Positions 5,516 to 57,200 of a stretch of DNA of 64,000 nt are shown in pieces; positions within the stretch are counted from its first letter, which is position 1; each line of letters begins with the position of its first letter. Location: positions 2,108,501-2,172,500 of the forward strand of contig OX485805.1 of NCBI GenBank assembly GCA_950295325.1. The letters run 5' to 3'. The notes below the pieces were generated by a model. That model was not told the DNA's origin and did not search any database. It was given only the letters and a program-made list of their open reading frames with translations. The DNA is from Polytrichum commune (Eukaryota > Streptophyta > Polytrichopsida > Polytrichales > Polytrichaceae). Both the position numbers and the translations under genes were made by a program.

Positions 5516-6646
5516 TCTACCTGACCACTTCTCATCTGGTCATAGTCACAGAAATCTATTGATCATACAGACTTGTATGCTTATTCGAAAATCTATTTTA
5601 CTGCTAACAAAGATTTATTGGTAACTAATTACAAGCAGGAAATACCCTCACAATATCACTGCAATGTAATAGCCCCCGTAGTATTTTCATATTACCCATA
5701 TAGCAGGTATTATTTGAATCAGAGTATAGAGAGTATAAAATGTTGTTTCAATCAAGAAAGATAGTCTCATAGTCGTTGCTCCAAATTTCAAGAAGATTTT
5801 TCTTGTGGAATAGCTATGAATGGACATTTCTTCGGATGGTGCACAGCACTTGTAGAAGAGGTCCTCACCTGTGCCCATGCTCCCCAACATTACCAAAGCA
5901 TAAGTTAGTAGAGCGTACAACAGGTGTAGGCGGACCTTCTTACTTGTTATCGATGTCAACAAGGCTGTACTATTTCCTTGGAAATAGGTAGAATTCAACT
6001 CTCTATATATCTTGATTTAGAAAGATCAACATATATCCATGTAGCTTTATCAAAATATGTATAATCTCAAATATATATCAAGAATTCATGTGTAGTTTTC
6101 CTCAAGAGTATAATTCATACAATTATACTTATACATGGGATAAAACCTTATAATCATCCTTGGAAGCATTATTCTTGCTCATCTTTGCAGCAATAGCAGT
6201 TTCTTGGTCTTGTGACCCACTTCACTGTTCAGACAGAAAATTCCTTTGAAAGAAACAGATTCTCTCTCAGGAGATCTATTCTTTCTATCCTTCCACTCCG
6301 CAACAGACTGTGAGTTCGTGGTATCTACTTTAACAGGTAACCCGCGGCCTTAGCTCTGAATCCCTGTATAGCTATGAATCCCTGTTGAGCAGAGTCTTTT
6401 CTTCACATCAACCTTTCTCAGACCACCCTCCTCTTCGAAGAACAACTATGGGCAGATACTACCAGTCTCCTGGCTCTGTTCTCAGAAAAACTGACAGACA
6501 GCTCTACCTTCTAGTCTCGGAAAATCTGGCTCTGGGTTGTGCCAGTCCTCGTTGCCTTTTTATATTGCTATTTCTGCCACATTTTTTTTATGTGGGCAGC
6601 CCATAAGGGTATATTTTTAGGCGCTTTATTTTTTCAGGATTTCAAG

Positions 6647-6651
<5 letters not shown>

Positions 6652-6682
<31 letters not shown>
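6652..6682. repeat. GA microsatellite
   Basis: An uninterrupted AG/GA dinucleotide tract of about 30 bases lies in otherwise non-coding sequence. Confidence 0.95.
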
Positions 6683-6684
<2 letters not shown>

Positions 6685-7468
6685 GAGCTTGACAGAGCAT
6701 AGCCGGATGCCTACTCCGAGACATTACCAGGCGTGAAGCCAATTCAATGACGGCAGACAAGAGATATTAATAGTAGGCGATAAACTGCGAAAGACATTAC
6801 CATCTCAGGAAAGAGAAACTGATCAATTAGTGTAAGACATTAACAAAGGCAAATCACCTTGAGATTACAATGGACTAAGGCTTTAATCAAGGAATATCGC
6901 CTACATTGTTGATGCTTGGATTATGTATAATCTTGTGGATGTTTGTGATGACAAGTTGCCAGATAAATTGAAGATGACGATGATGATTACAGTTTCGAGA
7001 AGATTGCCGAACGACTTGTAAATTGAACTAAAATGAATTAAATTGAAATTATTGCAGGTTTAAGGTTTGAAATGCCAAGACGATGCGGTTACAAAAAGAC
7101 ATTACCCCGGACTATGTCCTGACAAATTGCCCATGACAGCTTGCCAAGCTTTTGAGCTTCACGGCTGAAATAGGTCAAAGGCATAGAGTGATAGGAACTT
7201 TCCCAAAGATAGGACATAATCACTAACGACTGAGGAAGCACAAAGGAACCATAAGAGTGGAGAGTAAGTGGAATTAAGAAGGAATGAAGGAAGAAAAACC
7301 TTAAGTTGTTATTATAATCCTTAATCCAATGTGACATTAACCCTTATAGACACTATCTCAGTCTTCCTGGAGACCTAGTTCCCTGGGTTTGTTGTTTTAA
7401 GTCATAGAAAAAACCTAACTACAGGTGCCGAAAATTGCATCAATTGCAATTGCAGAATTATGACCAAA

Positions 7469-38521: not shown

Positions 38522-40480
38522 CTAGTCTTTGCTGACCTTGTCCTCAGATTTGCCATACTTCCGTAATGCAAATGCCACTCCCAGAAGTACCAGGGGCACC
38601 AAAAATTGGAGAACTTTACTGAACATGCCTACAGTATTTGTGGAAGCAGGGGTTTTAGAGAAATCCTTGAGTTCTTTAGAATCATTTTGAGCCTTCTTTT
38701 GGTCCAATGCTTCAGGACACTCACCCACATAGAAGTCCTTCAGTTGCTCCTTGGCACTCTTGCTGTGGCCAACATCATCAAAGTCCTCCGTGGCATCTCG
38801 CCCTGAATTGAGCAACATTTACATTTATTAGGTATGCACCACTCTTAGAACATGCAACCACATCGAATGCTGTATGTCCTGTGTCGAACTTAATTCACTA
38901 GCACTAACTGGTACTCCTTTTCCATGCCAAAAAGATTTCACAAAATGGAACATAACAAAGAGTCTATGTCATGCCGAACATGGTTCAAGCGCAAGCTTGT
39001 AATTGTCCAAGTGCAAACAAAAAGTCCTCTTGAAGAAGGTTGCCCTCTTATATGTTTGCACACAACCCCCTTCCATTTCTCAAACAGCAAATGCCTTCCA
39101 CTTCTAAAGCATCTTAGTGTTGCATTGACGCATTGACTACCTACTTGGCAGCCACATTCCATCATCAAGTATCTAAGTGTTCCTTAGACCTAACAAAAAT
39201 ACCTTAGCAGGATTTCATTACTTTGCGCTGGTACATACCCCTCTTCCACGGCAGAAAGATTTCGCAAAAGGAAACAAAACTAGGGATCTATGTCATGTAC
39301 ATCATGACAAACATGGCTCAAGTGCAAGCTTGTGATTACACTAAGTACAAAACGAGAAGTCATCCTAAAGAAAGTTGCTCTCTTAATTGTGAAGACACAA
39401 CCCCCTTCCATTTCTCAAGCATCTAAGTGTTGCAGTGACTAACCTACTTGGCAGCCACTTTCCATCCTCAAGTATCCAAGTGTTCCTTTTCACTAAGGGA
39501 AATACCTTGTCAGGATTGGATTTTTTTGCACTGGTACCCCTCTTCCATGCCAAAAATATTCCACAAAAGGGAGCAAATCAAGGCATCTACATCATAAAAA
39601 ACATGATTCAAGTGCAAGCTTCTGATTGCACTAAGTGCAAACGCGAAGGCATGTTGAAGAAGGCTACTCTCTTATATGTGTGCACACAACTGCCTTCCAT
39701 TTCTCAAGCATCTAAGTGTCCTGGTCACGGTGACTAACCTACTTGGGAGAATGTTTTCCCTGCTTGTCCTTCCCTACTCACTACAAGCAACTATCCACGG
39801 TTGGATGAAGTTAATCGATAACCAATAGGAGATTGTTTTTTCTCCTCTGTATCTAGTGCTCCCTCAACTTATAATCCCCCCCATCTCAATGTTGGGACCC
39901 CCTATCCTACTGCTTCTAAACAAATCCACTGTCAAATGGACTTAAGAGCGTAAATAGGTAGTAGGAGATATATGTATCAGAGTGGTTCCCGCCATAGCCT
40001 GCCTGTCGAAGAAGCATCACACAATCCAATCCTCTTCACCATGGACGCAAAAACTACAAATTTTCTCCGAGAGAGGAGAGGGCAACCAGAAATCGCAAAA
40101 ACACTTACATTTGACCTCAAGAGGCTCGATTACGTAGACACCGACCAACACAAAACAAACCGACAGGAGAAATCCAACAAGAAGCACCCATATCATCACA
40201 TATCACATCATACCTGCGGATTGTAGAAGGACGTCATCACCTCCCGGGTGGTCATCCATAAACTTGGTCACATCATACACCTGCCGAGACAAAACAAACA
40301 AATAAATATCCGAATCCATTCTGAGCACAAACCAAACCAAACCAAAACCAAAACCAAAACCCATTGCCCAAGAAACCTGTCACCGACCTTGCCTTCGATG
40401 ACCATCCAGCAGTCATCCTGGACGGTGTGCTCCCCCACCTCCTTCATGCTGAAGACGACCTTCTTCCCTGCGTCCTCCAT
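38522..40480 (-). CDS. Cytochrome b5, ER-type tail-anchored, 3 exons, complete, 146 aa
   Basis: Electron carrier that supplies electrons to ER desaturases, hydroxylases and some P450s. Exons: 40480-40388, 40280-40214, 38802-38522 (93+67+281 nt = 147 codons, phases 0 and 1, GT-AG borders). The haem-binding fold is intact: [38 protein letters not shown] with axial His at ~42 in HPGG, and [12 protein letters not shown] with the second axial His at ~66. A charged linker follows, then the hydrophobic tail [18 protein letters not shown] (~118-135) and a polar end, typical of a tail-anchored ER or outer-mitochondrial cytochrome b5. The start is the first ATG in exon 1; a GA-rich stretch lies just upstream of it (40482-40505), in the probable 5' UTR. 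Length is slightly above the plant norm (~135-140). Intron 2 (1.4 kb) is mostly tandem repeats. Very secure. Confidence 0.96.
38905..39750. repeat. Three ~300 bp tandem repeats in cytochrome b5 intron 2
   Basis: Units begin near 38908, 39227 and 39529, each with CTGGTAC then CTTTTCCATGCC or CTCTTCCA(C/T)G, then AAGATTTC(A/G)CAAAA or a variant. They run through CAAGTGCAAGCTT or GCGCAAGCTTGTAATT, CACAAC..CCTTCCATTTCTCAA, CATCTAAGTGT and CCTACTTGG(C/G)AG. They fill about 60% of the intron. Confidence 0.82.
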
Positions 40481-47756: not shown

Positions 47757-50377
47757 TCATTGGTTTGGAAGCTTGATCCAGTTATTGGCAAATGCAACCC
47801 CTAAAATTGCGAAAGGAGAGAGTAGGGTCAACAGAGCAATATAAGGCAGCAGGGTCTGCATTGGATTCTTCCCCTCCTTCTCCGCAGACGTCTGCCAATA
47901 CCTGGTGAATCAGAATGGCACATAACACTGGACTCATCAGAATCGCACACATTCATGGTAGATGGGTCATAAATGGATATGAAACACGTGATTAGTATGA
48001 GATGGTTGCACGAGATGGTTAACACATCCTAATCGAGGCCATGGCCACTTTCCTCATAGTTTTTGGGACTCATACGAATATCTTATTCATTGTGAAAGCA
48101 AAGAATCTTGTGCATATTAGATGGTCATACAGGTTCCCCCCAATTATGTCAACTATTGAGCCTAGTATGGTTATCATATTTTGAGCACATAGTCCAATCT
48201 CTTTGAGATACGTGTCTTGTTGATATCCGTTCTTGGTGTGACACCTAACCACTAAAATATAGGTGTCCAATTAAGATATTAAAAATATCATGTCTGCCTG
48301 AGGTAATTCTGGAATTTTGGATAGTCTGGAATTATGCACGCATTGTGGGAGTTGAACATCTAAAAATATAAGTAGACATGCCTAAATTGAACACAACACT
48401 AATCTGGACACCTAAATCTGAGTGGTATGTGGTTGGGTGTGGATCTAAGAACTGGCACCCAAAAAGACACCATATGTTTGAAAGAGATTGGACTAAGTGT
48501 TCAAAATATGTTGAACATTCTAAGTTGGGGGTACCTTTATGACCAATTACCGAGCATGGGCACTTTCCCTTTGATAATGAATAAGATATTCATATGAGCT
48601 CCAAAATTATGAGGCCACTGGCTTCGGGCACGATTTGGATTTGTTATTCATCTTGCACTAGTTGCAATCTGTTTTATATCCTACGAAAAGTATCCATCTT
48701 AAGGGACGTCTACCTTAGTACAAAGACGCAACTATATGATCATTAGCGCATGATGAAAAACCAACAGAAGTCACATGCGTGGCCAAAAAGTCCGGAATTA
48801 CCAAAATACTCACATGACTTTTGTCAATTGCAACATTGCAAATACCAAAATGCAACATGGATTAATTAACATATTGGGAAGCTTACTGCTCAGGCTCTTG
48901 CTCCTTAGTGATGAACTTCTTGTCATCCTTCTTGCCTTCACTTCCTTTCCCGCCTCCTACATTCCTCCACCAACAAGAAAATCTTTATTGCTTAACTGTA
49001 AGAAACATTCATTTCAATTACTGGGTGCTGCGTTTTTAAAAGCGGGCTTTCCTCTTCTAGGACCAATCTTCGCTATTTACAGATCCAGAATTGTGTGCAA
49101 AACTTGTAAAGCCGGAATGGAGAATTCTAAATACTCAGAATCCAGAATTAATTGCTATGCTCACATTGACCACAACATGAGCTGAAGCAATTTGATTCAC
49201 AAGGAGAAAAATGGAAAAATTTGACAGTTTAAGATTGGCATACCATTGCACATAGGACCCAAATTAATATGCAATAACCATTTCATATAACTCTTCACTC
49301 TTCTTTAATCCCTGGAAAATTGCCATTCTCCATTCGCCCAAGTTCCAACAATGGTTCATTTACCTCCCTGGCTAGAACCCAATTCCGTCTTCGGACCACT
49401 TCGAAAACATAACCTTGGCTAGTTACGAAAGAGCATTGCGATGAAATTTGTCAAGCCAGAATGCCACATTCTAAAGACCCAGAAAGCGGAATTGATGCTA
49501 TGTCCACGTTGACCACAACATGAGCTGAAGCAATTTGATGGGGGAGAAAAGAGCGATTCAAGAGTTTAAAGAGAGGCATTCCGTTGCAGATAGAACTCAA
49601 ACTTAGAAATGCAATAACCCTTATAACCCTCTACACTCTCCATTCTCCCCGGTTCATTTTTACATCGGACCACTTCTAGAACATATCTTTGAAAGTTACA
49701 AAAGAGCATTGCGATGAAATTTGCAGGGCCGGAATCCCGAAACCAGAATTGCTATGCCCGCATCGAACAAAACATGAGCTGAAGCAATTTGATGAAAAGG
49801 GCAATTCAAGATTTAAAAACCGGCGTTCCATTGCACGAAGGACCCATAAATTCGACATTCCGGCTTAAACCCATGAATGTGACATAATCCTTATGACCCT
49901 TCACTCTTTTTCAATCCCTGGATAATTGCAAATTCTCTATTCTCCCAGGTTCCTCCCCGGTTCATTTACCTCCCATTCTAGGCCAAACACCATCTTCAGA
50001 CCACTTCTAGAGCATAACCTTGGCTGGTTTCAAAAGAGCATTGCGAGGAAAATTGTAAAGCCCGAATCCTTGAATCCTACAGACTTAGAAACCAGAATTG
50101 CTTGCTTTGCATGCATGCCCACATTAACCAAAACATGAGCTGAAGCAATTGCGTGAATGAAAAGAAAAAAGGGCGATTTATACACACCACCGAAGAGGGC
50201 CGAAGGTCCCCGGACTGCCATGCGCTTCTTGCTCCTCATGACGCCATGTTGCACTCTTGGCAAGCGCAGGTTTGAGCCCTTGAGCGAGCTTCCATAGCCA
50301 GCAGAAGAAGAAGAGGCAGGGGAGTCTCGGGTGGTGGTGGCAAGCGAGAGGGATGCGGCAGAGGCCACCGTAGCCAT
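47757..50377 (-). CDS. Small chloroplast-targeted single-span membrane protein, 3 exons, complete, 134 aa
   Basis: Exons: 50377-50188, 48956-48887, 47901-47757 (190+70+145 = 405 nt, phases 1 and 2, GT-AG borders). Residues 1 to ~55 are rich in Ser, Ala, Thr and Arg with almost no acidic residues, as in a chloroplast transit peptide. A Gly/Lys linker (FGGGGKGSEGKKDDKKF) follows, then EQEPEQYWQTSAEKEGKNPM and one hydrophobic span PYIALLTLLSPFAILGVAFA (~106-125), ending NNWIKLPNQ. I recall very similar EPEQYWQT...NPM...FANGWIK sequences from small thylakoid-located proteins of unknown or poorly known function in flowering plants, but I cannot name the gene with certainty. A thylakoid or photosystem-associated role is therefore inferred. 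The acceptor and donor sites, the phase match and the conserved end make the model secure despite tiny exons. The ATG at 50377 is the first in frame. Confidence 0.85.
47975..48690. mobile_element. Fold-back element with ~290 bp inverted arms, in intron 2 of the small chloroplast protein gene
   Basis: The left arm (about 47975-48270) contains TTTTTGGGACTCATACGAAT, AGTCCAATCTCTTTGAGATA and TCTTGGTGTGACACCTAACC. The right arm (about 48395-48690) is its inverse: GGACACCTAAATCTGAGTGG, GAAAGAGATTGGACTAAGTG and ATTCATATGAGCTCCAAAAT. The loop is only ~125 bp. The best-paired member of the family. Confidence 0.82.
49065..50150. repeat. Four imperfect ~300 bp tandem repeats filling intron 1 of the small chloroplast protein gene
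   Basis: The landmark ACATGAGCTGAAGCAATT occurs at about 49177, 49518, 49771 and 50133. The landmark AAAGAGCATTGCGA occurs at about 49429, 49703 and 50033. TTCAATCCCTGGA(T/A)AATTG or a variant and AGGACC or GGACC words sit at matching positions. The period varies from about 250 to 360 bp because of indels. Confidence 0.85.
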
Positions 50378-51292: not shown

Positions 51293-54200
51293 ATGGATGA
51301 CAAGGATGGTTTAGAGAGGCTACGGAGGCACCACCGACGCTTGCTGCCATGGGAAGGAGGCATGCCGCAAGAAGGCGTGACGATGCAAATTGTTGAGAGA
51401 GGAGAAGACGAGGACAGTGGGGAAGTTGCAGACCTGGCAAAGAGGACATGCTGTGAGAATATCACATTCATGGAGGGACGTCGGAAGTATGTATGTGCAT
51501 CTCTTGCGAACCATTCGTATGATGGTCCGCTCTTGCAGACGAACAGTTTCTCAGATTTCGGGTTACTGAGAGCCGGGAAACGCCAGGGGCCTTCGATGTT
51601 AGGCAATTTGTTGAAAGTGTTCGGGGACGATCATCATCATGGTGGGAGGGTTAACAATCGGAGGAACGTTAGTGGTGCTGGGGCCCTAATTGTTGGAGGC
51701 TTAGTCGTGGCTGCCAAAGTGGTGGCCCTCTTGCTCTCCAGATCCTTGTGTGGTGGTGCATGGCCCATTATGCAAGTGCTCAGCATTTGCACTTTGCCTT
51801 TTGGTCCGCTTAAGCAGCTGGTAAGAATGCAACCTCGAATTTACCTCCAACGAAAGCGCAAATTCAAGAAATTTATGTCACAAGAATGGTTGGAATGGTT
51901 CCGAAGATGACGAGTTTTTCAATTTGGAGTTTCCCAACTGTAAAACATGCCTACTTAGAGAGCTGTGAGCTCAGCAGTAAAATATTGGCAGGGTTAATCT
52001 TTGCTTATCTGTTTGTTCGTGTTTGCTTATTTGCACTTAGTTTGCCTTTTGGTGCGCTCAAGCAGCTGGTAAGATTGAAAGCTTGAATTTATAAGAGTGG
52101 TCGGAGTGGGTTTGAACATGAAGGAGTTCTTCAATTTGGCGTTTCCCAACTATAAACATATTTATGTTTAGGCTTTTGAGCTGAGCATTAAGATTTCGGC
52201 AGGATTAATCTTTGCTATCTACCTGTTTGTTTCTTTTTGCTTTTTTGGCACTTAGTTTGTCTTTTGGTCTGCTCAAGCAGCTGGTAAGATTGCAAGCTCG
52301 AATTATAAGAGGATTAGGTCACAAGAGCGGTCGGAGTGTTTCTGAAGATGAGGGAGTTCTTGAATTGGGCGCTTCCCAACTGTAAACATACATATTTAGA
52401 GCTTTGAGCTGAGCAGTAAAATTTCGGCAGGGTTAATCTTTGCTATCTATGTACCTATCGTAACTTCGGCTGTTTTGTTCGTGTTTGCTTCTTTGCACTT
52501 TGCCTTTGGGTCCACTCAAGTAGCTGGTAAGAATACAACCTCAAATTTAAGCTCATTACAAGAGTGGTTTGAGTGATTCTGAAGATGGAGTTCTTTCACT
52601 TGGCATTTCCCAACTGTAAACATACACACTTAGAGCTTCTAGCTGAGCAGTAAAATTTTGACAGGGTTAGAATTTGCTATTTATTTATCGTATTTTGGCT
52701 GTTTGTATGTTTGTGCTTCTTAGCACTGTACCTTTTCGTCTACTCAAGTAGTTGTTTAGAATCAGGTCACAAGAAAGTGGCGGGAGTGTATTTGAATATG
52801 AAGGAGTTGTACCATTCCACGTTTCTCAATTGTGAACATATTTACAATTACAGCTTTGAGCTGAGCAGTTTGGCAGGGTTGGCTTTGTGTTGTAACTGAG
52901 GCTGTTTGTTGGTGTTTGCTTGTTCTTTCAGGTGCTTCCGGAGCCAGTGAAGAGAGTTGTGGAACCACTCGCAGGGCCAGTTTTGGGCCTCACCATAGCA
53001 CAGCCATTAGTATGGTTGTGTATGCCGAATACTTATCGCACTGCAAGGTTTTGGAAACGCCTCCTTCCAATTTACGTGCGGTATAGCTCATTCCTCTTGG
53101 CGTTTGTGTGTTTCTGGTATTGGAATGCATAAAATAGTTTTTGTGGAGAATAGAGTCATCATTTAACTCTATGGGAATTTTTGTTGGGAGTTGGTCTCCT
53201 AGGATTTTTTCATTGCTTGTTTTGCAGATGCTATCAATAATTTTCTTTCTATCCATGCGTGGTGCATGCTTGGAGGTAGTGTTTGAATTTGAATGAAGAG
53301 CAACCTATTTTGGTCAGTTCGTTGATGGCCAAAGTCATATTAGCACCTCTTGGCATGCCAAAATGAGTTTGACCCTCAATGAACATTTAAATTGTTCTTC
53401 ATTTGTTCACACCTCCACACTACCTCCAAGCATGCACCGAAAAATTACCAAACATGGAAGGTGTTGTATGCAAACCAACCAACTCCCGACCGAAAGTCAT
53501 GTTGAGTTAGAGGATGACTCTAATCACCTACTCCAATTCCTGGTTGATTGGATTTACCTTTGGCTTGTGTTTTTGATAAGGTTGAATGCTTACAGAGAGT
53601 AAAATTTGACTTCATCTTGGAGGCAAAGATTTTGTTGGCAGGAAACAGTGAGTGGACTGACTGGTGTATACTTGTAAATGTTGGAGATGGAACCAAATCT
53701 ATCTGCGTAGGGATTATTAGTGTCCACAGTACATCATTTTTGACTCTTCTAGAGCAAGAGATAATTTATGTGCAACCCATAGGGTTGCTGTTGTGGGTCA
53801 GGTACATTAAGACGAAGCGACAAGTGAGGAATTTATCACCTGCAGAAAGGGATACAATATGGGCGGTGCGCCATGAGTGGGGTGGTGAGAAAGTGCATAA
53901 TTTAGTCCTGGACATGAGTGGATTCTATGTGAAATCGGCCCAAATTCTGGCCACCAAAGCTGTAAGTTTATCAAATTTGTTGCTACAGTCATCATGTGTC
54001 CTGTAGCAACATGATGTGTTTGTAGACCTTTTGTTGTTGTTGTTGTTGTTGTTGTTGTGTAAGGTAAGTGGGCCTTAATAGGACATTTTTCTCTCTGCAC
54101 CCACTTCTTGTACCGTATGAAACAAGCAATTTGTGCGAGATGATTAGCAAATCAAATCATGCTTGTATCCATTTTCCTCATAATTTTTGAGGCTCATTTG

Positions 54201-57200
54201 AATCTCTTATTTATTATCAAAGCGAAGATGCTCATGCTCACTTAATGGTCATATAGGTTCCCCCCAATTAAGTTGCCTGTTGAGCCTAGAATGATCAACA
54301 TATTTGAGCACGTAGTCCAATTTTTCATAAACACATGATACCTTTTTGGTGTCCGTTCCAAGATCCACACCTAACCACACACCACTCAAATATAGATGTC
54401 TGATTTAGAAAAGTGACCATGAAAGGCCCTAAATCATATGTGATGTAAACTGTGAGTCTGCTATCTGGGTTAAGTGTAATTTATTCTCTATGACAGGATT
54501 TTGTACCTGAGCCTTGGATCAGACGTCTTTCCAACCACCTGGATAATGCTCCGCCTCGCCCTTTCGCTGAAGTAGAATGTAGCATTATGCAACAACTTGC
54601 CACCTGCCCATGCAACAAATCGTTGCCCCGCAAATCAGGTGGGCTTGTACCCCTTGATGCAGTGTTCCTGGATGTGGATCCTACAGCTATTGCAGCAGCT
54701 TCCATTGCCCAGGTATTTGAAAACCACTTCTCGCTATTAGTGTTACAATAGAGTATCATTTAACTCAATGGGAATTTCTGTTGGGAGTTGGTGCCCTATG
54801 ATTTTCCATTGGTTATTCTGCATACAATATCAATAATATAATTATTTCCACTTGTGGTGCATACTTGGAAGTAGTTTTTGAATTTGAAACAAAGAGCAAC
54901 CTATATTGGTTCATTGAATGCCGAAGTCATTTTTACACCTCTTGGCATGTAAAATTGAGTTTGGCCCTCAATGAACCCATATGGAATGTTCTTTGTTCAA
55001 ACCAAAGTTGGACTGGTATTGCCTTTTGTAAATACCATTTGGGTATCCATGATGAGGATTTCACATTTTTTTGATATTTGTAGGGTATGAATAATTGACA
55101 GTATTTTTGTCCTCGTTACCATTCGGGTATGTATATTATGCAAGAACCTTCACACCTAGGTCAAATCGCCCTAGTATCAGTATGTTTTGGAATGGTATTG
55201 ACCAACATAATTACTTGGGTATAGGAAGATTCTCCCCCCTGACATACCCATCAAATATCAAAATTTGACTGGTATTACAAATATGATACCCATAGGTAGC
55301 TTTTTTGATACCATTATTGGAGTTGATTATTGATACCCATGCATTCACCTACATACCGGTCAAACATTGGTTCAGACCTCCACACTACCTCCGAGCATGC
55401 GCAGAAAACTAACCAATTGTGGAAGGTTTTTGTATGCAAAAGAACCGACTCCTGACCAAAAGTTCTTTTGAGTTAGAGGATAACTCTAATGTGCCTGTCT
55501 TATTATCAAGCCCCAATACACATTTGTAGTGGCCCTTATGCTTCTCATGAATGGTCTTACTATACCTTCCAGCTGGCAGCCATGTTGATTGTATTTCCAA
55601 GTGTGCAATGCCATTATAGACTTTTACTTAGTTTTTTTTGTGAATGGTGGGCTCGAGCAAAGGTGCATGCAGGTACACTCAAGGACAATAATATGCGGGT
55701 GGTTATCAAAGTTCAGCACCTTGGCATGGAGAAAGTGATGGCTTCTGATCTTCGTAACATTGGTTGGGTATGACCTGACCTGGTTTTGATTTGAAAGGTG
55801 CCGATTCACTTTGTGATGACTGAAGAACTTGATATAATTATGAATTGCAATCTAATCCCAAAACAATAATGTTGGAGTACTTAGTGTTGTGTGTTTGTAA
55901 TTTCCTAGTAATAAGTGTACAAGGAATGCATGACAGATTAGTCTGAATGTTGTGCTGAATGAGTACAGTTATGTCACCTCTACGTCTATTGTATCCCATT
56001 CCCATCCCATTCCCATCCCATTCCCATCCCATTCCCATCCCATTGCTTCATAGTTTCTGTGAACTTTTGTACAGGTGGCAAAATTCTTGGAGGGCCAGCT
56101 TCCGTTTGACCTCGTTCCTGTAAGTGATATTTGAACCTCTAATCCAGTTTGTGTCCACTCAGAGAGAAGTATGTATTTGCCTTGTAAAGTTGGAGTCAAT
56201 CTGCAGTTTCATGAAAGCCATTTAGTCTGCCTCTGCTACTGAAATGACACTGGGTTTTACAATGTTGCAGATAGTGAAGGAGATTCAAGCAACTATTCCA
56301 TTGGAATTTGATTTTGCCCGGGAAGTCTGGTTCATGGTATTATTCTTATTTGACATTAACTGCCTGTATATTGTAACGTGAAATGAATAAGTTGATGAAG
56401 GTTGTTAGGGGTGTAAACATTAATGTGGATAAAATAAAGCATCCGCAAGTATTTGCACTTATCTCTTATTTGTATTTCTATATGTCTGGATGCTTTTGCA
56501 GACAAATATAAAAGAAAGTTTAGAGACAAATGGATTTGACAAAATCAAATGTCCTGCCCCTATGCTGGACCTCTGCTCCCAGCGACTAATTGTAATGGAG
56601 GTAAAATTACTATTTTCCATGTAATCAAGGCTATTGAAAATTCATCTTCTGTATTTCAAACTCTGCTTGAATCAAGAAAATTACTCAATACTTTCTGGCC
56701 TGATTGGTGAGTCCTTTTTTCTCTAATCCTGGCTAGGTACTTCTTTCTGTTGAGTTTGATGATATTTTCTTAGCAGAAACTACACTAAATAGTTCTATCA
56801 CTGTGGGCCACAGTAATTTTATAGAGCGCACACTGTGAGATTCAATGTGGGCCGCATTAATTTTCCACTCATGCTAAATTTCTAGTAGAAAATTAGCGTG
56901 GCCCATAGTAATTGTTTTTCCTAGGAAATTAATAGAGGTGGTTATTTTATTTGGTGCTACTTTCGTCCTAAAACTAATGTGTTGGTTGGCAGTCTTCATG
57001 AAGTCTTTGGGGAAGACCCTGGTTTTTGGACCCACATTCTTTCCACCTTGACTTAAAATTTAGTGTGGCCCACGTCAACTATTTCCATGCTAATTTTTCA
57101 ACTACACTAATAGGACTATTAAGTGTACTTGACTTCTGTCTTGACAGAGATTGGATGGTGTACCCTTTACGCATATTCTGCATTCTCGAGCTCCTGAGGC

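Follow-up and report, generated by a model that had tools for sequence, protein, structure and literature searches.

Why is the first intron of a predicted ABC1/UbiB-type kinase gene of Polytrichum commune filled with copies of the end of its own first exon together with the splice donor that follows it, and do these copies influence the expression of the gene? The question arises from a stretch of 64,000 nucleotides (GenBank assembly GCA_950295325.1, contig OX485805.1, positions 2,108,501 to 2,172,500 of the forward strand), which is referred to here as the window and to which all positions apply unless another contig is named. Our analysis suggests that intron 1 was probably enlarged by stepwise tandem duplication over the exon 1/intron 1 boundary and that the extra donors were carried along as passengers.

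The predicted kinase gene and its first two exons

The gene matches PF03109 (Pfam ABC1) with 72.1 bits, well above the cut-off of 22.9, which places it among the ABC1/UbiB atypical kinases. The match to TIGR01982 has an E value of 1.6e-23 and stays far under the equivalog cut-off of that model; the matches to UbiB models run from residue 251 on and all lie under the models' own cut-offs, and the solved ABC1 and COQ8 proteins are weak matches to the gene product. The modelled exons 1 to 7 (Table 1) comprise 423 open codons, with additional exons downstream.

The join between exon 1 and exon 2 is a prediction. It is based on the phase-0 open frames on both sides of the intron, on the finding that, among 2000 Markov sequences, a frame as long as that of exon 1 (176 codons) stays open by chance in 0.1%, and on the change in GC content from 0.52 in predicted exon 1 to 0.39 in intron 1. 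The codon score of exon 1 is best in frame 0 (0.194), with frame 2 near to it (0.170). No homology was found for exon 1, as the protein-family matches start at residue 251, in exon 3, and a search with the protein of exons 1 and 2 as query returned no close paralogue in which the intron could be compared.

Table 1. Predicted features of the kinase gene and of the array in its first intron (positions in the window)
Feature	Position	Strand	Basis
Modelled part of ABC1/UbiB-type kinase gene, exons 1-7	51293-56336	+	Pfam match, open frame
Predicted exon 1 (176 codons), ending in phase 0	51293-51820	+	Open frame, ends CTG/GTAAGA
Unit 1 of array, with exon 1 tail, donor 51821 and intron body	51784-52028	+	Five-unit alignment
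Unit 2 of array, with donor copy 52069 and CTTAG in the tail copy	52029-52242	+	Alignment, donor scan
Potential 28-nt microexon in unit 2, frame-shifting	52041-52068	+	CTTAG and donor, frame test
Unit 3 of array, with donor copy 52284 and CTTAG in the tail copy	52243-52490	+	Alignment, donor scan
Potential 28-nt microexon in unit 3, frame-shifting	52256-52283	+	CTTAG and donor, frame test
Unit 4 of array, with donor copy 52527 and an in-frame TAG in the tail copy	52491-52718	+	Alignment, donor scan
Array unit 5: donor decayed to TTGTTTAGA, sole unit with GTTCTTTCAG acceptor end	52719-52931	+	Alignment
Predicted exon 2, phase 0 start	52932-53080	+	Open frame

Intron 1 is made of five diverged tandem units

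The predicted intron 1 (51821-52931, 1111 nt) consists of five diverged tandem units. When 51701-53000 was compared with itself by BLASTN, direct repeats were found at an offset of 211 (815 columns, 72.8% identity, E 3.7e-131) and at further offsets of 463 (E 1.9e-71) and 706 (E 7.2e-39), and the repeat search returned five in-register copies with spacings of 248, 215, 243 and 228. The array of about five units with a period of about 230 bp that had been proposed in a sequence-only reading of this DNA is thus borne out. TRF picks up part of it only (52321-52762, period 234).

According to the same reading each unit restarts with a copy of the exon 1 tail. This stands, whereas the tail sequences had to be corrected, to GCTTAAGCAGCTG in exon 1, GCTCAAGCAGCTG in units 2 and 3, ACTCAAGTAGCTG in unit 4 and ACTCAAGTAGTTG in unit 5, and the start of the array had to be moved into exon 1, near 51784, where the last ~36 nt of the exon (51784-51820) form the head of unit 1. 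The tail and its copies end at 51820, 52068, 52283, 52526 and 52754. Every unit begins with ~36 nt of exon-1 tail, followed by the donor, which is decayed in unit 5, and the intron body; the 3' ends of all units copy the 3' region of the intron, TTTGCTT, and the acceptor GTTCTTTCAG follows in the last unit only. An extra 4 nt common to units 2 and 3 creates CTTAG, and the tails of units 4 and 5 contain an in-frame TAG. Given the exon 1 prediction, the repeated unit holds both exon and intron sequence, as expected for a tandem duplication across an exon-intron boundary. The suggestion that a splice site is itself the repeated unit has to be revised: the unit, 213-248 nt in length, is the exon tail plus nearly the whole intron, the splice site makes up 9 nt of each, and its repetition would be a by-product of the position of the duplication breakpoint.

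Pairwise identity among the five aligned units ranges from 68.2% to 85.4%. Since the units differ at 15-32% of the aligned positions, an assembly artefact or a recent copy was ruled out. Units 2 and 3 are the closest pair (85.4%, K2P 0.164) and are joined in a maximum likelihood tree of the intronic part with a support of 81, while the grouping of units 4 and 5 has a support of 54. Unit 5 is the most distant one (K2P 0.36-0.42, with 0.42 to unit 2) and, judged by this divergence, would be the oldest.

Proposed course of the enlargement

An ancestral intron 1 of about 0.2 kb would have grown to 1.1 kb, about fivefold, by several rounds of tandem duplication. The ancestral size is suggested by the intronic part of unit 5, which is 177 nt long (52755-52931). 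Because GTTCTTTCAG is present in the last unit only, the duplicated block would have run from ~36 nt upstream of the donor, in exon 1, to ~10 nt before the acceptor, and owing to these start and end points each round would have duplicated the exon-1 tail and the donor without the final CAG. The number and order of the duplications we infer from the units themselves: the graded divergence (K2P 0.164-0.42) and the supported grouping of units 2 and 3 fit several events. Splicing of the mature message most likely still takes place between donor 51821 and acceptor 52931. The three donor copies that survive, and likewise the two 28-nt pieces that gained an AG, would then be passengers, lacking a function of their own and giving rise at most to some unproductive transcripts.

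Donor strength and consequences for the reading frame

The same donor nonamer, CTGGTAAGA, stands at 51821, 52069, 52284 and 52527, and the fifth copy reads TTGTTTAGA. The donor of exon 1 is thus intact in three of the four extra copies, as had been noticed before. All four donors have seven of nine consensus letters, a value of at least seven being reached by no other GT in 51701-53000 (97 GTs), and the duplex with the 5' end of U1 has -8.0 kcal/mol at each of them, the best value among the 97 GTs, followed by -6.8. In terms of local strength the four donors are therefore equal rivals, in agreement with the earlier reading. Their surroundings differ. In the 60 nt upstream of donor 51821 the GC content is 0.50 and the T content 0.33, compared to 0.45, 0.38 and 0.48 (GC) and 0.45, 0.53 and 0.43 (T) upstream of donors 52069, 52284 and 52527, respectively. 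On the basis of these values the exon 1 donor would have the most exon-like flank, with a small margin in GC.

The two 28-nt pieces bounded by CTTAG and a donor copy were found where the sequence-only reading had placed them, and both AGs are T-rich. Counted over the 20 nt upstream, the acceptor at 52931 has 15 pyrimidines; the AG at 52255 has 16 and ranks first among the 81 AGs of the intron, and the AG at 52040 has 14 and shares a four-way tie for fifth. Seven splice forms beginning from exon 1 (extra donors, retention, microexons) were subjected to a frame test. Use of any of the three extra donors, or retention of the intron, leads to a stop at codon 206; inclusion of either microexon leads to a stop at codon 238 and inclusion of both to a stop at codon 201, which confirms the predicted frame shift. 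An early stop was consequently observed in all seven alternatives. For each extra donor the alternative choice introduces a premature stop, as in AS-NMD. The arrangement does not correspond to mutually exclusive tandem exons: CTTAG is present in two of the four extra tails, and both pieces are 28 nt long and shift the frame.

Conservation of tails and donors

Among units 2 to 4 the mean pairwise identity is 0.806 in the exon-tail columns and 0.808 in the remainder of the intron. In view of these values the extra tails do not appear to be conserved as exons; they seem to diverge at the rate of the intron, which argues against selected microexons. Thus, the idea that the array tunes expression or yields useful isoforms finds no support in tails that are no better conserved than the intron and in alternatives that all end early.

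Across units 1 to 4 the donor nonamer shows no difference, a degree of conservation reached by four of 194 nine-column windows, three of which lie over the donor and one elsewhere; in units 2 to 4 alone, eight of 197 nine-column windows are as conserved as the donor. With maximum likelihood branch lengths on the tree of units 1 to 4, the probability of no change is ~0.006 for the 9 nt and 0.059 for GTAAG. The test is post hoc, with the motif picked as intact, and it includes unit 1, which is constrained by use; for these two reasons we regard it only as a weak hint that divergence may be somewhat lower in the donor nonamers than in the remainder of the unit.

It is against this background that a role of the donors has to be weighed. 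The extra copies might be kept as decoys that divert transcripts to products with premature stops, probably subject to NMD, or that hold U1 on the long intron, the number of units helping to set gene output. Four equal donors that are the best U1 matches of the region, the stop that each of the three extra ones brings about and the somewhat better preservation of the donor columns are in line with such a role, yet this conservation is weak and post hoc, the donor of unit 5 is lost, the extra tails are unconserved and arrays without donors are common in the genome, and we consider it unlikely. Quite improbable in our view is the stricter form, a copy-number dial in which each duplication adds a decoy donor of equal strength, gene output is set by the number of units and selection maintains the donors in units 2 to 4. 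Passenger donors appear most likely from the tails that diverge like the intron, the in-frame TAGs, the early stops and the common occurrence of arrays; the donor nonamer unchanged in units 1 to 4 would count against them, with the post hoc choice of the motif in mind.

A single frame-keeping alternative was observed. Transcription starting within unit 1 could provide an alternative first exon (51886-52068), in which ATG 51886 and donor 52069 would lead to a kinase with a different hydrophobic N-terminus. This frame has 61 open codons, enters exon 2 in phase 0 and stays open through exon 7. Of 2000 Markov sequences, however, 4.9% have an equally long open frame, the codon score is intron-like (-0.154), and units 3 to 5 have no equivalent (25, 1 and 1 open codons, no ATG), making such an exon very improbable.

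A decayed partial copy on C4

In a genome search that scored the best candidates only, one other place matching the unit was found, on the minus strand at C4:53939607-53940660 (within C4:53937000-53943500, locus L004). A piece of exon 1 comes first (84% identity over 132 columns), then the last part of unit 1 together with unit 2, and then an insertion of ~470 bp, beyond which lie a part of unit 3, the last part of unit 4 and most of unit 5. The copy is collinear with the array, the order of the units being unchanged. As pieces of all five units are present there in order, the array is older than the partial copy and hence old. In the four aligned pieces 78 differences from C3 to C4 are C>T or G>A and 12 are the reverse, a bias that would fit a methylated, decaying copy on C4. 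The donor copies of units 2 and 3 are lost in it. In this copy exon 1 meets the last part of unit 1 at a shared GCTCAGCA, which is consistent with a deletion between short repeats.

Tandem arrays elsewhere in the genome

To compare the intron 1 array with others, tandem arrays of at least 50 nt (spacing 60-800, E not above 1e-8) were searched in 36 loci of 7501 bases (L005-L024 and L026-L041). Twenty of them were picked from clusters of ABC1 matches, with some clusters left out, and 16 lie around sugar transporter and aminotransferase matches; some of the arrays counted may lie outside introns. The search gave 15 arrays in the 20 ABC1 loci and 21 in the 16 other loci, a total of 36 arrays in 36 loci, one or more arrays being present in 11 of the 20 and 12 of the 16 loci, respectively. 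An ABC1-type gene at C4:30718500-30726000 (L005) has a predicted first intron of ~2 kb, read by eye, with an array of 1653 nt (5546-7198 of the locus) in about five diverged copies, and a tract between two sugar transporter matches (L032) consists mostly of two copies ~360 apart. Like the intron 1 array, both are built from moderately diverged units of a few hundred bp that fill much of a predicted intron; unlike it, their units contain no exon end with donor when read by eye. From the 36 loci, 71 repeat pairs were aligned; two of these had donor-like nonamers in register, in each case on the opposite strand to the sampled gene, and for none of the other arrays in these loci could an exon end with its own donor be demonstrated. 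Thus, tandem arrays are ordinary in this genome, and the exon end with donor within the unit is the unusual part. At such a frequency, exon boundaries can be expected to fall within some of the arrays.

An inserted satellite or transposable element with a chance likeness to the exon end deserves hardly any credence as the source of the units: tandem repeats are indeed plentiful in the genome, but among the best candidates scored the search gave no more than this locus and a decayed copy, which includes part of exon 1, and the tail matches exon 1 in register in all four extra copies.

A preference of arrays for the 5' side appeared strong in the 20 ABC1 loci (13 5', one 3', one inside; p 0.002) and was not confirmed in the 16 loci of the two other families (12, 7 and 2; p 0.26). 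Because the second set of loci did not confirm it, no such bias is claimed. The window itself has further tandem repeats: a diverged array at 49065-50150, ~1.1 kb upstream of the predicted start codon of the kinase gene, another diverged array at 38912-39750 and a young tandem pair at 1822-2382 (period 299, ~92% alike). On C5 (1751760-1846160), fourteen light-harvesting protein matches of equal score were observed on both strands within ~95 kb and seem to form a young gene cluster. Genes for light-harvesting proteins and TTTAGGG repeats (619 forward and 662 reverse matches) indicate the genome of a green plant.

Significance and comparison with known systems

The intron offers a natural test of how the spliceosome chooses among four donors with identical nonamers that differ in position and context only, and it points to a way in which an intron can be enlarged by repeated tandem duplication while the reading frame across it is kept open. 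If the decoys were used, expression would have a simple control in the number of copies of an intron unit; if they are unused, donor choice tolerates three perfect decoys.

The alternative sites resemble poison exons and alternative donors coupled to NMD in that all of them would give premature stops. They differ from these in that the predicted sites appear to be without clear conservation.

In the titles and abstract openings listed, searched with limited wording, no intron array bearing its own exon end was found, and passages of PMC8724738 and PMC6041940 hold nothing that bears on such an array. In the AGGT model of intron gain, a duplicated exonic AGGT supplies both splice sites (PMC3443670). 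Here, too, the structure of an intron is altered by tandem duplication, but the array does not conform to this model because the acceptor end GTTCTTTCAG is present in the last unit only and thus outside the repeated block, which moreover is mostly intron. The nearest published case identified is the RdRp gene of potato, in which one tandem duplication over a 3' intron-exon boundary made a new intron, as shown by RNA-seq; a separate 83-bp tandem duplication inside intron 1 is also mentioned there (PMC4974935). Both cases concern a plant gene and a boundary-spanning tandem duplication that brings splicing signals along. In contrast to potato, several rounds at a 5' boundary would have enlarged one predicted intron here and left spare donors rather than an acceptor. 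What is new compared to known boundary duplications is thus that the duplication is multi-copy, lies at the 5' boundary and enlarges an intron rather than making one.
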